Below are positions 29,074 through 63,376 of a stretch of 64,000 nt of DNA, in pieces; within the stretch, counting starts at the first letter, position 1, and each line of letters begins with the position of its first letter. Made by a program: the position numbers and the translations under genes. The notes below the pieces were generated by a model. That model was not told where the DNA came from. It saw only the letters and a program-made list of their open reading frames with translations, and ran no database searches. Location: positions 62,001-126,000 of the forward strand of contig JAKSUQ010000001.1 of NCBI GenBank assembly GCA_024408855.1, in the 5' to 3' direction. This stretch comes from a bacterium (GTDB taxonomy: Bacteria > Cyanobacteriota > Vampirovibrionia > Gastranaerophilales > Gastranaerophilaceae).

Positions 29074-29152
29074 TTGTAAATATTTGTTACAAATATTTTT
29101 CTTATTGAAATTAAATTAATTATAAATACTTTTTATATATGTAAGATATAAG
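29074..29152 (+). promoter_or_regulatory. Shared orphan-gene promoter element, copy 1
   Basis: AAATACTTTTTATATATG with trailing TAAGATATAAG lies at 29124-29152, ending 14 bases before the ATG at 29167. About 38 bases upstream, TTGTAA and TTGTTA (29074, 29084) form a 10-bp-period direct repeat. This is the weakest match at the -35 side (TTGAAATT instead of GCAATTT). Confidence 0.5.
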
Positions 29153-29166
29153 ATTATTGGTGTAAG

Positions 29167-30363
29167 ATGAATATCGAAAATAGCTATAATTTATTTTCCA
29201 AAAATTTTGATATAATAGACTTGAGCGAAGCCGATACTACGAAATTAGTTAATGGGGCAATGAATCTCGCATCATCTTTGCTAAATTCTATATTTACTTC
29301 CATTGCTGCATCTGCTGATAATGAAGTTAAAAATGAAGAAAAAGAAGTTAAACTTACTCAAAAGGAAATTAAAGAATTAGAAGCTGATTCTCAAAAATTT
29401 ATAAATGAAAAGTTAAAAGAAGTTCAAGAAAAAGTAAATAAAATTAAAGGAAAACAAGCTGAAATACAACCGAAAGCCGAAACTCTTCAAAGTAATGAAA
29501 GTAATATAGATAAAGAACAAGAAAAAGTAGCGAATGCAATTGATACTTTTAATACAAGCGAAAACCAGGACGAAAGAGCGGAAGCATTAACAACAATATC
29601 TTCCTCTAATGACGCTATATATAATTTGGTTGGCAGTACTCTCGATTTAGAAACGAGTGTTAATGAAGCAAATAGCGAATTAATTAATTTAACTGCTGAA
29701 ATTGGAGCTTTAGAAACAGAGGCTTCTGCAAAAATGGCAGATACAACCGTTAAGATAGGCAAATATGAAGCTGATTTAGGTAAACAAACAACCAAAGCAA
29801 CTAAAACCGTTGCAGAAGGCGATGTAAACATTGCCGAAAGCGCTGTGGTGGAAACAGAGGCTGAGGCTTTGAGTTCAAATGTTTATACAGCTGCAGCAGG
29901 TCTTAAATTGCAACAAAAAGCAAACGATTTACAACAAGCCGGCAATAAGCGTATTGATGGTGGCGGAAAGGTTCTTAGTGAAATAGGTTCAACATTACCT
30001 TCTCTTGGGGAAATGTATGAAACATTAGGACAAAGTGTAACTGAGCTCGGTACTAATATAGCAGATGCGGCAGACACTTCAACAAAAGCAATTGGCTACA
30101 CAAATGGTTTGTTGGACTCTATCGGCAGTTGGGAAAGTGTTAAAGCCGCAAATGATGACTTGAAACAAGAAGTAGATTCTGTTGACATTGAAACTTTAGC
30201 TTCAGGCAATGCTAATAATCCCGAAGAAGAAGAGCATTCTTCTAAATATTCAAAAATGAATGGTATAGCACCTTGGTTACGGGATGAAAATACCAATTAT
30301 AATGAGAGTATTGAATTTAATGCTGATGAGTTAACTAAAAATTTAATAAGATTTGGTGTGTAA
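29167..30363 (+). CDS. Coiled-coil protein of unknown function
   Basis: A 398-residue protein I do not recognise. After an N-terminal region with a hydrophobic stretch (about 28-48), residues about 52-110 are a strongly charged coiled coil (KNEEKEVKLTQKEIKELEAD). The middle is rich in Ala, Thr, Glu and Ser, and a later segment (about 255-320) has a Gly/Thr/Leu pattern. It has no signal peptide or enzyme motif. The overall look is that of secreted pore-former helpers or tail-fibre-like helical proteins, but this is only an impression. It has a shared promoter element upstream and stands alone between minE and adhE. Confidence 0.6.
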   Translation: MNIENSYNLFSKNFDIIDLSEADTTKLVNGAMNLASSLLNSIFTSIAASADNEVKNEEKEVKLTQKEIKELEADSQKFINEKLKEVQEKVNKIKGKQAEIQPKAETLQSNESNIDKEQEKVANAIDTFNTSENQDERAEALTTISSSNDAIYNLVGSTLDLETSVNEANSELINLTAEIGALETEASAKMADTTVKIGKYEADLGKQTTKATKTVAEGDVNIAESAVVETEAEALSSNVYTAAAGLKLQQKANDLQQAGNKRIDGGGKVLSEIGSTLPSLGEMYETLGQSVTELGTNIADAADTSTKAIGYTNGLLDSIGSWESVKAANDDLKQEVDSVDIETLASGNANNPEEEEHSSKYSKMNGIAPWLRDENTNYNESIEFNADELTKNLIRFGV

Positions 30364-35338: not shown

Positions 35339-35782
35339 ATGCAAGTACAAAAAATTGATTTATCGGGCAGAAACAATGTTACTTTCGGAGTTGCAATAAC
35401 AGTCGGAACTAAAAAAAGAATATTGCATGATGCTCATAAAAAAGGCATAGGTGAAGACAAAGTTCAGGAAGTTTTGAATGCTCTTGCTAAAATAGGAAGT
35501 GAGCATACAATTATAAGTTCAGGTAAAGTTAAGCATGAAGATGTTATGTATATGGTACATGGTAAATTGGAAACAAAATATGCCATAAACCAAACAAGAA
35601 TGGTTATAAAAAACAATGAAGCTCAAACTCGAATATCAAAGAACTTGTCAACAGGCACCGCAACGGATTTGTTTTCTTATTTTTACGACATGTTTGTAAA
35701 GTATCCGAAATGCGGTGCGACTCTTATTAATGAAACAGAAGCAGAATTATATAGCAGAAGTAAAGCAATAAATCAAAATTAG
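35339..35782 (+). CDS. Hypothetical protein with a weak FxG-type N terminus
   Basis: A 147-residue protein I do not recognise. The start ATG at 35339 is eight bases after GCGGGA; a TTG at 35333 is less well placed. The N terminus (MQVQKIDLSGRNNVTFGVAITVG) resembles the short N-terminal motif of other orphan proteins in this window, though less well than the others. The rest is a mixed alpha/beta pattern with many Lys and Thr. Upstream, TTTACTTAAAATATATAAGTTAATG (25 bases, 35301-35325) resembles the shared promoter element. Function unknown. Confidence 0.55.
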   Translation: MQVQKIDLSGRNNVTFGVAITVGTKKRILHDAHKKGIGEDKVQEVLNALAKIGSEHTIISSGKVKHEDVMYMVHGKLETKYAINQTRMVIKNNEAQTRISKNLSTGTATDLFSYFYDMFVKYPKCGATLINETEAELYSRSKAINQN

Positions 35783-38979: not shown

Positions 38980-39168
38980 TTAACTTAGCAGTGCCTCTAA
39001 GAGCTTTGCATTTTTGTCAGCTAAACCGTTTCTTCTTCTTTGATTCTTTGTAATATAAGCTCGAAGAGCTTCTCTAATCAATTCTGAGCGTGATCTGCTT
39101 TCTTCGTCAGCGACTTCATCAATTTTGCCAAGAAAACTTTCCGGCATTGAAATAAGAACTCTTGCCAT
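38980..39168 (-). CDS. Ribbon-helix-helix (CopG/Arc-type) transcriptional regulator
   Basis: A 62-residue protein with an RHH fold: strand ARVLISMPES, then helix SRSELIREALRAYITKNQRRR. The C-terminal 15 residues are extra. Such proteins dimerise and bind DNA through the strand. AAGGAG lies six bases before the ATG. It stands alone, without an antitoxin-like or toxin partner, and has a shared promoter element 33 bases upstream. It could be a regulator within or over that set. Confidence 0.82.
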   Translation of the reverse strand: MARVLISMPESFLGKIDEVADEESRSRSELIREALRAYITKNQRRRNGLADKNAKLLEALLS

Positions 39169-39200: not shown

Positions 39201-39277
39201 TTGTTATCCTGTATATATATAAAGTATTTTTTCTGTAATAAATTGCTTATAGTTTTATAAATATTAAGAAATATTAA
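39201..39277 (-). promoter_or_regulatory. Shared orphan-gene promoter element, copy 2
   Basis: Read on the minus strand: TTAATA twice with 10-bp period (39277-39262), then GCAATTTATTA (39246-39236), then AAATACTTTATATATATAC (39230-39212) with AGGATAACA. The ATG is at 39168. The distance between repeat and TACTTT is about 35 bases, as in copies 4 and 5. Confidence 0.6.
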
Positions 39278-40712: not shown

Positions 40713-41306
40713 ATGAATGTAAATGGTGCTGATAATACGAGCTTTAAAGCGTATTTAAAGATCGATCAAAATTTGGTTAATCCAAAAAATTTGCAACGAT
40801 TAGAACATGTGCAAGAACTATTTAAAAAACAAACGAAACGTTACCCCAATGATGCATTTGTATTTGATAAGCATATCCCATGGTGGACTGTAAGGGATAA
40901 ATCTGTGGATCGTTTAATGGATGTTTTTAAGATAATCCCTTGTATAACAGATACATTTGACAATCTTTGTGAAAATTTTAATGACAAAGATATTGCAACG
41001 TACATGAGTGATGTTTTTAAATGGCATATTTTCGGATATGATAAAATAAAAGAATCCGGTGGTGTCATAAATCGGTTGAATGACAATTTGTTATACGAAG
41101 AGGGGATGATTAATGAATTATATGCACCTGCCCCTGAACTTTTGAAAGATTACAAAGCTGATAAGAAAGCCTATAATATTGAGCTACATAAGTTGCGTGA
41201 TAAACAGGAAGCTGGAGCTCAGGCTTTGTTGGATAAATATTCATCTGATAAGGGTTACTCACTGCTTGATTTTGAGCATGAGCCTATCTTTGATTACAGA
41301 GCATAA
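40713..41306 (+). CDS. Hypothetical protein with FKAYLK N-terminal motif
   Basis: A 197-residue soluble protein I do not recognise. Near its start is the short motif SFKAYLK, similar to AFRGIYK in the protein at 59145-59507 and YTGIYK in the mini-ORF at 62931. The remainder is hydrophilic and mostly helical, with a C-terminal basic/acidic helix (DYKADKKAYNIELHKLRDKQE). AAGGAG is before the ATG. A terminator follows. Confidence 0.65.
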   Translation: MNVNGADNTSFKAYLKIDQNLVNPKNLQRLEHVQELFKKQTKRYPNDAFVFDKHIPWWTVRDKSVDRLMDVFKIIPCITDTFDNLCENFNDKDIATYMSDVFKWHIFGYDKIKESGGVINRLNDNLLYEEGMINELYAPAPELLKDYKADKKAYNIELHKLRDKQEAGAQALLDKYSSDKGYSLLDFEHEPIFDYRA

Positions 41307-41471: not shown

Positions 41472-42104
41472 ATGGGTTTAGAAATTAACGGTCAGACCGG
41501 AATATATGACGGAGTAATCGCTGACGAGTCAGTCAGATATGGCAGAAATTCAGTTGAAAATCATATAGATTATTTGGAAAAGCCTTTAAAGAAAAGTGCT
41601 TATGCTCCTGCTCCGATATTAGATTTTTCCGGCACCGCTAATGCAACTGAGAACAATATTAAAAAGTTAGGTTTGTATATAAAAGATAATGCTAAGTATT
41701 TAGATACAATTCCTGAAGAACATTATAAGTACAGGTATATGCCAAAACAAGAAAGCCAAGGAATTATAAATAAAAAAGCTCTTATCGGGGCAGCGTATGA
41801 AGAAATGCTTGCAAAAGAAATGAGTGTAAAAGATTTTGAACAAAGATTTCTCATTTCAGATGATATGACTGCAAAACCTATTGATATAAATAATGATGGC
41901 AAAATTACAAATAACGAGTATGCTGCAACAATTCTCGCTGCCGATATATATAGTAAAGAAACTCCTGATATAAATGGTGCAGATGGGGTTATAAATTCAA
42001 AAGGTTTAAATACCGTTTTGGAATATTCCAGAAAAAGCAGGGCGGAAGCAGCTACCAAGCTGTATTCAGAAATTTTTTCAAGATATAAATTAGATGAAGA
42101 ATAA
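41472..42104 (+). CDS. Hypothetical protein with EF-hand loop
   Basis: A 210-residue protein of no recognised family. Residues 138-149 form a canonical EF-hand loop, DINNDGKITNNE, with Asp, Asn, Asp at 1, 3, 5, Gly at 6, Ile at 8 and Glu at 12. A second loop-like DINGADGVINSKG is found about 30 residues later. No signal peptide or membrane helix is seen. GGAGG lies before the ATG and TATAAT at 41440-41445. Confidence 0.68.
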   Translation: MGLEINGQTGIYDGVIADESVRYGRNSVENHIDYLEKPLKKSAYAPAPILDFSGTANATENNIKKLGLYIKDNAKYLDTIPEEHYKYRYMPKQESQGIINKKALIGAAYEEMLAKEMSVKDFEQRFLISDDMTAKPIDINNDGKITNNEYAATILAADIYSKETPDINGADGVINSKGLNTVLEYSRKSRAEAATKLYSEIFSRYKLDEE

Positions 42105-55300: not shown

Positions 55301-55345
55301 TTAATGTTAAGCTTTTTTTTTGAATTTTGTCAATTATTTATTAAG

Positions 55346-55375
55346 AAATGACTTTATATATATACGGGGAAAAGT
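55346..55375 (+). promoter_or_regulatory. Shared orphan-gene promoter element, copy 3
   Basis: AAATGACTTTATATATATAC followed by GGGGAAAAGT. It matches copy 2 almost base for base over ACTTTATATATATAC-(A/G)GG; CAATTATTTATTA precedes it at 55331-55343. It lies 20 bases before the ATG at 55395. Confidence 0.55.
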
Positions 55376-55394: not shown

Positions 55395-55865
55395 ATGACA
55401 ATTAATACTGATAATCCAATACGTGAGATTAGGACAACAAGTAAAAGCTGGGGTTGCTATGTCGATATGAAACGTGATGAAGCAAAAGAATATGGTATCT
55501 TTACTTTTTTAAATTTTAAAAAAACTGATGAAGATAAAGATGGAGTTCTTTCATATGAAGAAGTGATGAAAAAACGTGAAAAGGGTATTAAGTTTAATCA
55601 AAGACTAAGTGCAATTCTTTCCGGTATAGGTTGTGCTAAGTGTTTTTCAGGTATAAAATTAAATTCTCTCAGTACGGAAGCGGTTAAAAAGATATATGGT
55701 ACAACCCCAAGAATAGCACATTTTAGTAAAATAGTTACGATTATAGTGTATCTTCTATGTGCGATGTCTCTTAAATCAAGTGCATCAGCGATGAAATATG
55801 AAAATAATAGATACAAATCAATATATAACGAATATCAACAACTGCAACTTGAAAAAACGGTGTAA
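55395..55865 (+). CDS. Hypothetical protein with EF-hand loop
   Basis: A 156-residue protein not in a family I know. Residues 45-56 are a complete EF-hand loop, DEDKDGVLSYEE, with acidic residues at 1, 3, 5 and 12, Gly at 6 and Leu at 8. A hydrophobic stretch at about 112-126 (VTIIVYLLCAMSL) might be a membrane helix. ATG 55395 is eight bases after AAGGA; an ATG at 55386 overlaps that site. A terminator is downstream. Confidence 0.65.
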   Translation: MTINTDNPIREIRTTSKSWGCYVDMKRDEAKEYGIFTFLNFKKTDEDKDGVLSYEEVMKKREKGIKFNQRLSAILSGIGCAKCFSGIKLNSLSTEAVKKIYGTTPRIAHFSKIVTIIVYLLCAMSLKSSASAMKYENNRYKSIYNEYQQLQLEKTV

Positions 55866-56060: not shown

Positions 56061-56139
56061 TTTACAAAACTTAACAAATCGGAACAAAAAAGGCAATTTT
56101 TTAAAACTTATATACTTTATATATATGTAAGAGTTATAA
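56061..56139 (+). promoter_or_regulatory. Shared orphan-gene promoter element, copy 4 (most complete)
   Basis: Order: TTTACAAAACTTAACAAA (56061-56078), a 10-bp-period direct repeat; GGCAATTTTTTA (56092-56103); TATACTTTATATATATG (56111-56127) with TAAGAGTTATAA. The ATG is at 56162. Copy 5 on the minus strand shares all three parts at nearly the same spacing, over about 70 bases. Confidence 0.65.
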
Positions 56140-56161: not shown

Positions 56162-56407
56162 ATGTCAGAAACTTATTCAGCAATCGAAAGAAACAAAAAA
56201 CCGGCAGGAAGTATTGAAATCCCTGAAGATTATAAATTATTTTATTTAACTAAGAAAGATCGCCAAATGAGATTTAACAATGCAAGTGATCCAATTTACG
56301 CTATATTTGAAAAAATGGAAGATCGTCCTCTTTCAAAGATAGCTGTTGATTTCGTAAAAGAATTAAGAGATGATTCAATCAAGTTCATTTCAAAAGTTAT
56401 AAAATAA
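56162..56407 (+). CDS. Hypothetical 81-residue protein
   Basis: A small basic/acidic soluble protein of unknown family, MSETYSAIERNKKPAG at the start, ending in a helix FVKELRDDSIKFISKVIK. AGAGAG before the ATG is a weak ribosome site. It has the most complete shared promoter element upstream, which argues it is a real gene. It ends three bases before the convergent yraN gene. Confidence 0.6.
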   Translation: MSETYSAIERNKKPAGSIEIPEDYKLFYLTKKDRQMRFNNASDPIYAIFEKMEDRPLSKIAVDFVKELRDDSIKFISKVIK

Positions 56408-59115: not shown

Positions 59116-59145
59116 AAAATCCCGCTTTTACAGCGGGATTTTTTT
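59116..59145. terminator. Bidirectional terminator between pnp and the minus-strand gene
   Basis: Stem AATCCCGCT (59118-59126) and AGCGGGATT (59132-59140), flanked by A8 on the left and T8 on the right, so both strands carry a T-run after the stem. It serves pnp and the gene ending at 59145. Confidence 0.9.
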
Positions 59146-59507
59146 TATTGTTTAATTTCTTTGGCTTGATTGAATTCGTTTTCACTTACCTTTTGGATGT
59201 ATGCTTTTTTTGCAATATCCAAGTTGTAAATCTTGTTACATTCAGCTACCGCATCTTTATAACTCTTTTCAAATTCGGCATTTTTATTGTCATCAATTTT
59301 AAAATATAAAGACCCTTCTTTTTCGTTCACTCTCGGAGTAGCAACACTCATTCCATATCCCATCATAACGGTATACATTAAAATATCCGTTAATGCATTT
59401 TTTTCTTTTTCGTCCTTTATTGTATCAACCTTAGGCGCAGTTAATTTGTAAATCCCCCTAAAAGCCATCGGTTGTGGGTTTGAACATGCTCCTACGTTAA
59501 AATTCAT
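59145..59507 (-). CDS. Hypothetical protein with FRGIYK N-terminal motif
   Basis: A 120-residue protein not in a known family. N terminus MNFNVGACSNPQPMAFRGIYKL carries the motif seen also in 40713 (FKAYLK) and the mini-ORF at 62931 (YTGIYK). A hydrophobic segment TDILMYTVMMGYGMSVAT is at about 39-56. The last part is helical and charged. A perfect AAGGAGG lies before the ATG. Shares the terminator with pnp. Confidence 0.65.
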   Translation of the reverse strand: MNFNVGACSNPQPMAFRGIYKLTAPKVDTIKDEKEKNALTDILMYTVMMGYGMSVATPRVNEKEGSLYFKIDDNKNAEFEKSYKDAVAECNKIYNLDIAKKAYIQKVSENEFNQAKEIKQ

Positions 59508-59696: not shown

Positions 59697-61697
59697 ATGG
59701 ATATTAAACAATTTTTAAATAAACTTTCATCATGTACACAAATTGATTTTTCCGGCAGAGAGTTTGAAATGAAATTGCTTGCACAAAAATATGATAAGAA
59801 TCAAAATTCGGTATTTGAGAAAGATGAACTTCAGGATATCAGTAGTGATATTAGTGTTTTTATGAACGCAGAAGGTAATCCTGACGAAATGAACGACAAA
59901 GAGATGAGTTATTTTTATCAGTCATTATTAAATAAAAATGTAACACAAATTGCCGGTAATCTTGGAACTATGACAACTTCAGCAGAATCATTATTATATA
60001 AGTTGATTGGAATTGGGGTGCAAAATAAAAAAGATATTATTCAGAAATATTTGGATGAAATCGGTAATAAAAGGGAATTTAGTGAAAGTGAAATGGAACA
60101 ATTATTAACACTGGATAATGAAGCCTTGGAACGTGCAGGGAAATATTTATTTTATGTTGATGACAGGAAAGAACAGCTACCAACAGTTGGTATCTGCGAT
60201 TTGGCAAAGTTAAACGAAAAAGAACTGGAAAAAATTAAAAAATTTATGTATATAGAAGGCAGGGGTGATTTTCAGCTGGAAGCTTATGAGCTTCAAAAAA
60301 TTGTTAGCTTGAATGATGAGCAATATGAATGGCTGTGTAAGTATATTGATAAATTCAGTAATATTCCCGGTACTAATTTGACAAATATTGCAAAAATACA
60401 TTCAAAAGCATTAAGTAATTTTTTGGCTAAACATTCAAAATTTTACTTATCGTCATATCATCTTAGAGTTGTGAATAAAGATGGTGTCATTACATTCTGT
60501 GATAACGGTGTTTTTTATACCTTTGATAAAATGGGGCAGATAGAGGAGAAAAAAGTAGAGTCACTTGATAATAAAACGGAAACAAAATGGATAGGCAAAA
60601 TATCCGATCTTTCAGTTGTTACAGTTTATAATAAAAGACTTAATGTAAAACAGAAGATTTTCGAAGGAAAAGCGAAAGATTCCAATAGGACTGTAATATT
60701 AAAAGAGGAATTGTTCTATTATGATAACAATGGATCGGTTATCAAAACCGTTACCGCAGTACGAGATTTAGATACCGGAAATATGAACGTAACGGAAACC
60801 GATATGAATGGGGAACAAACCCTAATTCAATGGCAGAGTGTTGATCCGAATACGGGTGCAGAGATTACTGAACGGCATTTTACTTCTCCGGAAGGTGTAA
60901 AGACTGATTATTATGTGGAAGAAAGTGATAAGTTAAAGATTACGGATTACAAAATTACGGACAAAGACGGAAAAGAGCTTATTAATGTACACCAAACTTT
61001 TGAAAGAGTGTCTGATAATAAGTTTATATCTTCAATAAATACAACCGGAAATCCTAAAGATACGCAAATCTATGAAATTGAATATACAGAAGATAATAAA
61101 ATTAGAATACATGACAAAAAGAATAATAAAATGACAGTTATTAATTTAAGTGATCATTTTGATGATGAAGAAGTACTGCAAAAAATGCTCCCGACGATAA
61201 AGCAATTACCAGGACAAGTACTTTTAGAGTTTTTGGAGAAACCTATTAAATTTGTTTATAATAAAGATATATTGGAAAATGCAAATTGGAATTCAGCAGA
61301 TGCAATATTAACAGTAGGTAATTTTAGAAACACAGAAGAATTACTTGCTGCTATTACTCACGAATTAGGACATTGTTTGGACGGCATGCCTGAAAACGGG
61401 GAAAGAAAAATTTCTAACCATGATGAGATAGTTGATATTTACAGGAAAGAGTTAAAACAATTTTTAAAATCAACAACAACAGAACAACAAAATCATATTG
61501 ATTATTTTATAAATGAAAACGGAGGAATGAGGTTTTTTGATCCGAAGTTTGAAAGAGTTGCAGAAACACATTCTCTATTATATTCAACGGATATGGCGTT
61601 ACTTAATATACGCAGATTATACTTTGCCCAATACTTTCCACGTACTATAGCTGCAATTACGAAAGTTCTTCTTGAAGAAGAAGGTGTAAAATCATAG
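59697..61697 (+). CDS. Putative zincin metallopeptidase with N-terminal EF-hand
   Basis: A 666-residue protein unlike any family I know by name. Residues 33-44 are an EF-hand loop DKNQNSVFEKDE. A helical region runs to about 270, then beta-rich repeats (about 280-480). The C-terminal domain has THELGHCLDG with the zinc motif H555-E556-x-x-H559, and E623 in FERVAETHSLL as a possible third ligand about 64 residues on. That spacing is like gluzincin or anthrax-lethal-factor-like peptidases. No signal peptide is seen. I chose ATG 59697 after AAGGGA, not the longer frame. Substrate unknown. Confidence 0.65.
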   Translation: MDIKQFLNKLSSCTQIDFSGREFEMKLLAQKYDKNQNSVFEKDELQDISSDISVFMNAEGNPDEMNDKEMSYFYQSLLNKNVTQIAGNLGTMTTSAESLLYKLIGIGVQNKKDIIQKYLDEIGNKREFSESEMEQLLTLDNEALERAGKYLFYVDDRKEQLPTVGICDLAKLNEKELEKIKKFMYIEGRGDFQLEAYELQKIVSLNDEQYEWLCKYIDKFSNIPGTNLTNIAKIHSKALSNFLAKHSKFYLSSYHLRVVNKDGVITFCDNGVFYTFDKMGQIEEKKVESLDNKTETKWIGKISDLSVVTVYNKRLNVKQKIFEGKAKDSNRTVILKEELFYYDNNGSVIKTVTAVRDLDTGNMNVTETDMNGEQTLIQWQSVDPNTGAEITERHFTSPEGVKTDYYVEESDKLKITDYKITDKDGKELINVHQTFERVSDNKFISSINTTGNPKDTQIYEIEYTEDNKIRIHDKKNNKMTVINLSDHFDDEEVLQKMLPTIKQLPGQVLLEFLEKPIKFVYNKDILENANWNSADAILTVGNFRNTEELLAAITHELGHCLDGMPENGERKISNHDEIVDIYRKELKQFLKSTTTEQQNHIDYFINENGGMRFFDPKFERVAETHSLLYSTDMALLNIRRLYFAQYFPRTIAAITKVLLEEEGVKS

Positions 61698-61825: not shown

Positions 61826-62698
61826 TCAGTCAAATATTAAAAACTTTTTACCGTAATATTTAACTTCAAGTTCTTCTGCCATTTTTTTGAATTCCGGAGT
61901 ATTATATTCTTTCGGCAATTTAATGTGCATATTACCATTTTTAACCAGCTCCAAAAAACGTGTTGAGCTGGATGCTTTACCATTTATATTGAATGCTGTT
62001 ATACCCTTTTCATAGTTGTACCAATTCCGAATTCTCTCATTCAAAACATCTCTAACCATTGATTCATCCAATGAAATTTCGTTTAATGGTAAGTCATCAT
62101 AAAAAATTCGACTTGCTTTGATCTTGTTAGGAGGAGTGCTTAGACGTCGGATTGCATTTTCATAAATATTTTTGACTTCTTTATCCGTCATATTGTTTTC
62201 ACAACCTATTTCCTTAAAACTTTTTCCTTTAAAAAATTCCGATAAAACTTTAGATTCTTTATATGATAATAAATCCTTAGAAGAATAAACTATTTCTTTT
62301 GCTTTTTGAAAAAAAGTTTGTTCATCTATTCTGTATGAAGCTAATCGTAATTCTTCAAGAGGAGTCAATTCTCCAACAGTCTTACGTCCAAATGTAATAA
62401 GTGTGTCAGCCGTAGGTTTCGTTTCGTTCATTGTTTTGGATAATGCTTTTACCGGATATTCTCCTTCCGGTTTAATTGTTTCCAGTTTTTCCAAAAATTT
62501 GAGATACAAATCTTGTGCATAGTCAGTCGAACTGATTTTGCCTCCTGATTTAGCAGCAGCTGTGGCAGCTTGGCGTTCTATTTGCGAGGCAAAAAGACTT
62601 ATCATCTTCGCTTTTAGTTCTTGTGTCGGTGCCTTTGTATATTGCCTGAATAATTGTCCAAATCTTTCTACGGCTTTAGCTGAAAGTTTTACTACCAT
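61826..62698 (-). CDS. Divergent sigma-70-like protein
   Basis: A 290-residue protein that looks like a sigma factor. Residues 57-72 (STDYAQDLYLKFLEKL) resemble region 2.1/2.2 (DLVQEVFLKL). Residues 143-187 (LLSYKESKVLSEFFKGKSFKEIGCENNMTDKEVKNIYENAIRRL) match the region 4 helix-turn-helix. About 100 further residues at the C terminus are unknown. Region 2.3/2.4 is hard to see, so promoter melting is unsure. Its own upstream region has a variant of the shared element, suggesting self-control. A regulator that is not a true sigma factor is the alternative. Confidence 0.6.
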   Translation of the reverse strand: MVVKLSAKAVERFGQLFRQYTKAPTQELKAKMISLFASQIERQAATAAAKSGGKISSTDYAQDLYLKFLEKLETIKPEGEYPVKALSKTMNETKPTADTLITFGRKTVGELTPLEELRLASYRIDEQTFFQKAKEIVYSSKDLLSYKESKVLSEFFKGKSFKEIGCENNMTDKEVKNIYENAIRRLSTPPNKIKASRIFYDDLPLNEISLDESMVRDVLNERIRNWYNYEKGITAFNINGKASSSTRFLELVKNGNMHIKLPKEYNTPEFKKMAEELEVKYYGKKFLIFD

Positions 62699-62711: not shown

Positions 62712-62743
62712 TTTCGATATCCACATATATTTATAAGAAGTAT
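62712..62743 (-). promoter_or_regulatory. Shared orphan-gene promoter element, variant before the sigma-like gene
   Basis: Read on the minus strand, AAATACTTCTTATAAATATA then TGTGGATATCGA, preceded by GCAATTTTTTATA. It has the same core as the others with four extra bases inside. It lies 14 bases before the ATG at 62698. Confidence 0.45.
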
Positions 62744-62808
62744 TTTTAGTATAAAAAATTGCTATATAAATATTTTTTTATTACAAAACGTAATAGTCAT
62801 GCGATTAT

Positions 62809-63027: not shown

Positions 63028-63273
63028 TTATAGTAAGGCTTCTGTTTTTACATATTTTGCTGATTTCGCGACAACTCCGTAACAGACCATTGTAAGTCGT
63101 GTGTTCAATGCCAACATAGTTTTATATGAATCAGAATTCATATTCATTGCATCTAACATATCGTCTGCTTGAACTTTTGATACCAACGCCATCGAATCAT
63201 GGTTATCAACTTTTTCTTGTGCATATTTTTCAACTAATAATTTGTCGATAAAATCTCTTGCTCCAACTGCCAT
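63028..63273 (-). CDS. Hypothetical 81-residue protein
   Basis: A small protein of unknown family: a charged N-terminal helix (ARDFIDKLLVEKYAQEKV), then residues about 36-80 with helix-forming segments (QADDMLDAMNMNSDSY, VCYGVVAKSAKYV). No signal peptide. AAGGAGAG precedes the ATG. A full shared promoter element is upstream, as for the unrelated 81-residue protein at 56162. Confidence 0.62.
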   Translation of the reverse strand: MAVGARDFIDKLLVEKYAQEKVDNHDSMALVSKVQADDMLDAMNMNSDSYKTMLALNTRLTMVCYGVVAKSAKYVKTEALL

Positions 63274-63299: not shown

Positions 63300-63376
63300 G
63301 TATATCTTATGTATATATAAAGTATTTAAATTATAAAAAATTGCCTTTTTATTCACGTTTTGTTAAGTTTTGTAAA
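63300..63376 (-). promoter_or_regulatory. Shared orphan-gene promoter element, copy 5
   Basis: Read on the minus strand: TTTACAAAACTTAACAAA (63376-63359); GGCAATTTTTTA (63345-63334); AAATACTTTATATATAC (63329-63313) with ATAAGATATAC. The ATG is at 63273. It agrees with copy 4 over about 70 bases, though the genes are unrelated and on opposite strands. Confidence 0.65.

Follow-up and report, generated by a model that had tools for sequence, protein, structure and literature searches.

A bipartite promoter class in Candidatus Gastranaerophilales and the probable alternative-sigma regulon of candidate type III substrates behind it

Why do six genes on both strands of one 64,000-nucleotide (nt) stretch of bacterial DNA share the same sequence upstream of their start codons, and what reads it? 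The stretch (the window) is C1:62001-126000, that is, positions 62,001 to 126,000 of contig JAKSUQ010000001.1, in a 1.96-Mb assembly of 110 contigs that is 97% complete. The genome is that of an uncultured member of Gastranaerophilales, animal-gut bacteria related to cyanobacteria that are known mainly from metagenomes and have largely unknown function. A sequence-only reading of the window had pointed to shared DNA before genes starting at 29167(+), 39168(-), 55395(+), 56162(+), and 63273(-), with a variant before 62698(-), and had proposed a lineage-specific regulon of short orphan genes. We found that this DNA is a bipartite element that almost certainly represents a real promoter class. 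On balance, we favor the view that it defines a dedicated alternative-sigma regulon of candidate type III substrates in Candidatus Gastranaerophilales.

A bipartite element upstream of window genes

We based the genome counts on pattern searches and on DNA stretches fetched around the matches. Thirty-one seed sites aligned without gaps, and a position matrix covering columns -24 to +19 relative to the A of ACTTT was re-estimated on the fetched DNA (72 sites). We found a single element in constant register: G(C/A)AATT, 15 nt, and ACTTTATATATAYR. The consensus is GCAATT(T) or GAAATT, 15 nt, and ACTTTATATATA(T/C)(A/G). The sequence-only reading had described a GCAATTT element 15 to 20 bases earlier. 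That element is present, but its placement is exact rather than loose: G(C/A)AATT stands at -21..-16 from the A of ACTTT in the 31-site alignment.

Exact ACTTTATATATA occurs 33 times in the genome versus 3 times for the reversed string, and ATACTTTATATATA occurs 18 times versus 0. Matrix scores in the fetched DNA were bimodal, with 72 sites at 18 bits or more and none between 14 and 18, and the reversed matrix gave no score of 15 bits or more in the same DNA. Because this sample was selected around pattern matches, it gives no density estimate. Our unbiased copy figure comes from a genome-wide pattern search allowing up to three mismatches, which returned 125 matches versus 40 for the reversed pattern, an excess of about 85. 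We conclude that the genome holds roughly 70-100 promoter copies. The motif provides a list of as many co-regulated transcription units, almost all of them unannotated.

To score the window independently, we trained a held-out matrix without any window site. It found exactly six sites (30 to 45 bits), all before the named genes, and its next-best score was 14.4, within a gene. Simulated Markov sequence matching the intergenic composition of the window (640 kb, scanned on both strands) never scored 18 or more. The site before 62698 proved to be a full member (33 bits) rather than a variant, and the site sequences were corrected to ACTTTTTATATA before 29167 and ACTTCTTATAAA before 62698. The window features are as follows.

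56093..56098, +: -35-like GCAATT of the 56162 promoter, placed by the matrix
56114..56127, +: ACTTTATATATATG element of the 56162 promoter (46 bits; 45 held-out)
56127, +: predicted transcription start of the 56162 promoter, from the minimal site-to-ATG distance and terminator-ended transcripts
56162..56407, +: orphan protein of 81 amino acids (aa), no Pfam match
55330..55364, +: promoter TCAATT-N15-ACTTTATATATATA before 55395 (35 bits held-out)
55395..55865, +: 156-aa protein with a weak EF-hand-like loop
29107..29141, +: promoter GAAATT-N15-ACTTTTTATATATG before 29167 (30 bits held-out)
29084..29092, +: palindromic box TTGTTACAA at -44
29167..30363, +: 398-aa protein, no Pfam match
39212..39246, -: promoter GCAATT-N15-ACTTTATATATATA before 39168(-) (39 bits held-out)
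38980..39168, -: 62-aa ribbon-helix-helix (RHH; CopG-type) regulator (PF01402, 1.8e-9)
63310..63344, -: promoter GCAATT-N15-ACTTTATATATACA before 63273(-) (43 bits held-out)
63028..63273, -: 81-aa lineage-specific protein with two predicted helices (3-21, 36-73)
62728..62762, -: promoter GCAATT-N15-ACTTCTTATAAATA before 62698(-) (30 bits held-out)
61826..62698, -: 290-aa protein with a weak GerE / sigma-70 region 4-like helix-turn-helix, below cut-offs

A paralogue of the 39168 RHH regulator (L018:2577-2765) also carries the promoter. The 61826-62698(-) product could be a divergent regulator.

Sites are intergenic, on the same strand as the next gene, and mostly 29 to 60 nt before its ATG; 1 of the 72 lies within a called open reading frame (ORF). 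AT-richness or chance was ruled out by the reversed-pattern, Markov, and held-out tests, in agreement with the earlier judgment. A mobile repeat was also ruled out, because only the promoter positions are common, the flanks differ, and the ATG distance varies among orthologues. We likewise rejected an archaeal-type TATA box, since this is a bacterial genome and the start codon is too close to the element.

The closest ATG is only 23 nt away (L026:5877), which puts the ribosome-binding site right behind the element and leaves no space for an additional downstream promoter. The short ATG distances, together with the terminator-ended noncoding transcripts described below, argue for a core promoter with a start at or near the conserved purine at the element's 3' end. 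Such a start would place the nearly invariant C of the motif (71 of 72 sites) at -12. Another possibility considered was that the element serves a single DNA-binding protein, such as an RHH regulator, as its operator. RHH proteins bind short operators, and the RHH genes themselves carry the element. However, the element would cover about -35 to -1 of any possible start, and no other promoter fits before ATGs 23 to 29 nt away. Moreover, the matrix is non-palindromic, with two unlike halves at fixed spacing, as in a bipartite sigma-type core promoter. We therefore regard an operator as very improbable.

The 72-site matrix did not fit the housekeeping sigma-70 promoter (TTGACA-N17-TATAAT), and it contains neither the GG at -24 nor the GC at -12 of sigma-54. 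The motif differs from the sigma-28/FliA motif (TAAA-N15-GCCGATAA-type), and the upstream region of this genome's flagellin gene has no site. Extracytoplasmic function (ECF)/HrpL-type promoters (GGAAC-type -35, CCAC/CGTC-type -10) did not fit either; the motif is GCAATT plus CTTTATATA, and only the architecture is alike. The earlier statement that no sigma-54, sigma-28, or sigma-B consensus matches thus holds.

Upstream of the core, the near-palindrome TTGTWACAA (at most one mismatch) occurs at 39 of 82 sites, versus 5 in shuffles (maximum, 11). It lies mainly at -44/-45 and at -54 to -56, and GAAATT-type sites carry it almost always at -44. Because the two positions are one helical turn apart, we suggest that TTGTWACAA is a predicted activator site. 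Such phasing would also fit the housekeeping RpoD, which is present everywhere, reading the element with an activator at TTGTWACAA as a regulated sigma-70 promoter, and TACTTT could act as a poor -10. In contrast, the palindrome is found at about half of the sites and the core at all of them, GCAATT and the almost invariant CTTTATATA are unlike TTGACA/TATAAT, and TACTTT as a -10 leaves a 14-nt spacer. We consider this RpoD-activator arrangement unlikely.

Distribution in the phylum and conservation at orthologues

We counted GMAATT-N15-ACTTTATA across 292 genomes of the phylum. The motif is present in all sampled genomes of the window's family, one with a single match and most with about 10 to 66, versus 0 to 3 for controls. 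Counts in class-mates and elsewhere in the phylum are 0 to 2 per genome. Other classes, among them photosynthetic cyanobacteria, lack the promoter. With one mismatch permitted, we compared families f1 (the window's family) to f8 (a class-mate family). Within the order, the sister families f6 and f7 are enriched and f2 slightly so, f3 and f5 are not, and f4 is doubtful; f8 is not enriched. We concluded that the motif is limited to Gastranaerophilales within the phylum sample.

When we searched public genomes with the 63273 protein family, 80 loci came back, mostly titled Candidatus Gastranaerophilales, Melainabacteria, or Cyanobacteria bacterium and including Candidatus Gastranaerophilus phascolarctosicola. 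The full promoter lies upstream of 73 of the 75 loci with usable upstream DNA (54 have it within 140 nt and another 19 within 400 nt), and its distance to the ATG at the orthologues is 43 to 184 nt. One of the two exceptions retains ACTTTATATATA (13 bits), and the other has only 91 nt upstream. At the same 75 loci, the reversed matrix matched once and downstream DNA gave 0 matches. Four records titled Acinetobacter sp. or Heliobacteriaceae (L225, L228, L236, and L238) carry a Gastranaerophilales-type 63273-family gene, so their titles look wrong; L228, L236, and L238 also carry the promoter within 140 nt.

The sequence-only reading had suggested a composition-matched motif scan. We ran it on the window, with pattern scans on the genome and its relatives, and found enrichment over reversed-pattern and simulated controls. 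This enrichment, the same-strand upstream placement (mostly 23 to 130 nt before the start), the orthologue conservation, and the restriction to Gastranaerophilales all support a lineage-specific regulon. Its members are mainly orphans as proposed, but not all of them are short (36 to 839 aa), and two are RHH regulators. That reading had not described the fixed spacing of the -35 and -10 elements, the upstream palindrome, the small RNAs, or the likely connection to type III secretion.

Candidate sigma factors

We think it likely that an alternative sigma factor reads this promoter. RNA polymerase carrying it would recognize G(C/A)AATT at about -34 to -29 together with CTTTATATATAY at about -12 to -1 and would begin transcription at the purine after CTTTATATATAY. 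A dimeric activator may additionally bind TTGTWACAA at about half of the sites, at positions near -53 or -63 that face the same side of the helix.

The genome encodes seven sigma-70 proteins. In a 10-genome comparison, the RpoD paralogues B, C, and D were found in the order and not in the class-mate G113 (B was unseen in G036). The SigF-like sigma (E), one ECF sigma (G), and FliA types were found in both. Sigma D (contig C45) is the most altered paralogue in the -10-reading region. At the position of Escherichia coli T440, sigma D of families f1 and f7 carries F (G319 has Y), that of f6 carries L, that of f2 and f4 carries N, and that of f3 varies among N, S, and Y; no sigma D was found in f8. 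This residue appears roughly to follow motif enrichment. In E. coli sigma-70, T440I suppresses a T-to-C change at -12 (PMC2613000). An RpoD-like candidate with a hydrophobic residue 440, paired with a C at -12 in the motif, parallels T440I and resembles the sigma-70 T440I/Q437H suppressor mutants (PMC2613000). Unlike sigma-70 promoters, the -35 element and the long TATATA-type -10 are off consensus here.

Several observations count against this assignment. G033 (Y) is not enriched while G319 (Y) has sites, and the T440 correlation covers few families. Region 4.2 of sigma D is RpoD-like while the -35 element is not TTGACA, and sigma D is also present where the motif is not enriched. We consider the order-specific sigma D the best candidate for the reader, a proposal that falls a little short of probable.

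A different alternative sigma is possible but more doubtful: paralogue B, the group-3 SigF-like E, an ECF sigma, or FliA. Paralogue B has I at the T440 position, a T440I-type change, and is order specific in the sample. ECF G and a zinc-finger anti-sigma (L065:4583-5704[-]) lie among five promoter sites on contig C30. However, E, G, and FliA types also occur in G113, whose family lacks the motif, and the E and G types there have similar recognition helices. FliA is missing from this assembly although the regulon is present. A FliA/WhiG-type sigma (L115:876-1694[+] and relatives) is kept in genomes that lost flagellar FlhA, but neither this assembly nor G001 has it.

Regulon products and a second type III apparatus

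The regulon consists mostly of orphan proteins, with the two RHH regulators and three putative small RNAs. Only 5 of 35 proteins tested passed the Pfam cut-off: an RHH regulator, a GNAT acetyltransferase, an AAA ATPase, an MgtE_N-like protein, and a GH108 muramidase-type protein. We found a signal-peptide-like N terminus in 0 of 55 regulon proteins versus 41 of 272 other proteins of the genome. In the same sets, T, P, A, Q, and S are overrepresented and L and I underrepresented at regulon N termini, and the HExxH metallopeptidase motif occurs in 8 of 55 versus 5 of 272. In G032, from another family, the genes behind the sites are similar in character.

Behind three sites of this genome there is no ORF; all three reach an intrinsic terminator 75 to 109 nt downstream. 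These sites look like they drive small RNAs:

L019:2520-2650, +: terminator-ended small RNA
L065:436-308, -: terminator-ended small RNA
L005:2369-2273, -: terminator-ended small RNA

Two of the three are copies of one C-rich RNA, identical over a stretch of 79 nt in which a C-rich segment is unpaired (ACCUACACACUAACCUUC), and the third is different. In G032, two tandem sites (L094) lead into C-rich transcripts with terminator hairpins. The segment ACCUACACACUAACCUUC resembles these tandem RNAs (L094, 2143- and 2591-).

The genome has a flagellar set (fliPQR-flhB-flhA and flagellin). It also has a second set, with FliE, FliF, a 360-aa protein, FliH, and FlhA on contig C16 and an SctQ-like protein (TIGR02551, 1.1e-18), FliO, FliP, FliQ, and FliR on C22. 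The second FlhA occurs in 34 of 36 order genomes tested, 71 to 100% conserved; G025 and G035, which lack it, are incomplete assemblies. It is kept in genomes that lost flagellar FlhA, where one FliP is left in 5 of 5 such genomes checked, and the SctQ-like protein is likewise retained where the flagellar set was lost. Judged by these genes, the genome encodes a separate type III export apparatus besides the flagellar one. Earlier papers took partial sets as incomplete flagella (PMC5877343). A search of one literature library for Gastranaerophilales and type III secretion or sigma factors found nothing relevant there.

In this genome, two regulon genes directly follow the second FlhA, one of them HExxH and DUF6782-like. 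In G020 and G228, a 63273-family gene with its promoter does so. We consider it rather probable that the regulon products are type III cargo, proteins without Sec signals that resemble substrates of the second, non-flagellar apparatus, made alongside RHH regulators and C-rich small RNAs. The list would then predict export of many products towards other cells or the host.

Three results weigh against this assignment. No promoter site precedes the apparatus clusters FliE-FlhA or SctQ-FliR, so the products are candidate cargo. Families without the motif still have the second apparatus, and the composition tests for type III signals lend weak support. The products may instead be cytoplasmic or otherwise localized proteins of a stress or developmental regulon, a less probable but substantial alternative. 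The apparatus genes lack the promoter, secretion is a prediction, and members with HEAT repeats, AAA, or GNAT domains could be cytoplasmic. Against this stand the absence of Sec signals in 55 proteins, the effector-like composition, the many peptidase-like motifs, and the position of regulon genes beside the second FlhA in three genomes.

Known systems offer partial parallels to the proposed type III regulon. In Pseudomonas syringae, the ECF sigma HrpL uses one bipartite motif, the hrp box (about GGAACC-N16-CCAC), before many type III effector genes. The present set likewise has one bipartite motif before many unrelated effector-like genes and probably one alternative sigma. However, the motif is unrelated, the candidate sigma is a group-2 RpoD paralogue, and the apparatus genes lie outside the regulon. 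A single sigma likewise governs the FliA (sigma-28) class-3 flagellar genes, whose late products leave through a flagellum-type export machine, as may be the case here; the consensus differs, the flagellin gene lacks the motif, and FliA is also present where the motif is not. Sigma-E-dependent RNAs such as RybB and MicA illustrate short terminator-ended regulatory RNAs in an alternative-sigma regulon, as we read the present one, although the RNA sequences and promoter are unrelated.

More tentatively, gut non-photosynthetic cyanobacteria may have evolved their own sigma by duplicating RpoD and changing its -12-reading residue, giving a new promoter class that coordinates the cargo and small RNAs of a non-flagellar type III system. 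This would be a possible natural case of sigma duplication followed by changed promoter recognition at a residue familiar from E. coli genetics.

We took a helical hairpin of about 80 residues related to solved needles as the mark of a type III needle. For the 63273 family, AlphaFold2 gave helices 3-21 and 36-73 (predicted template modeling score, 0.38), and Foldseek returned no PDB match. A short FxG/FKA motif was ruled out as a regulon signature because it is not enriched. An NxxFKA / FxG-like motif near the N terminus recurs in five window proteins without this promoter class (35339-35782, 40713-41306, 41472-42104, 59145-59507, and 59697-61697), possibly another exported class. Finally, an FlhA cytoplasmic-domain-only protein of about 490 aa (G000:C67:25763-26845[-]; L072) is present in nearly all order genomes tested.
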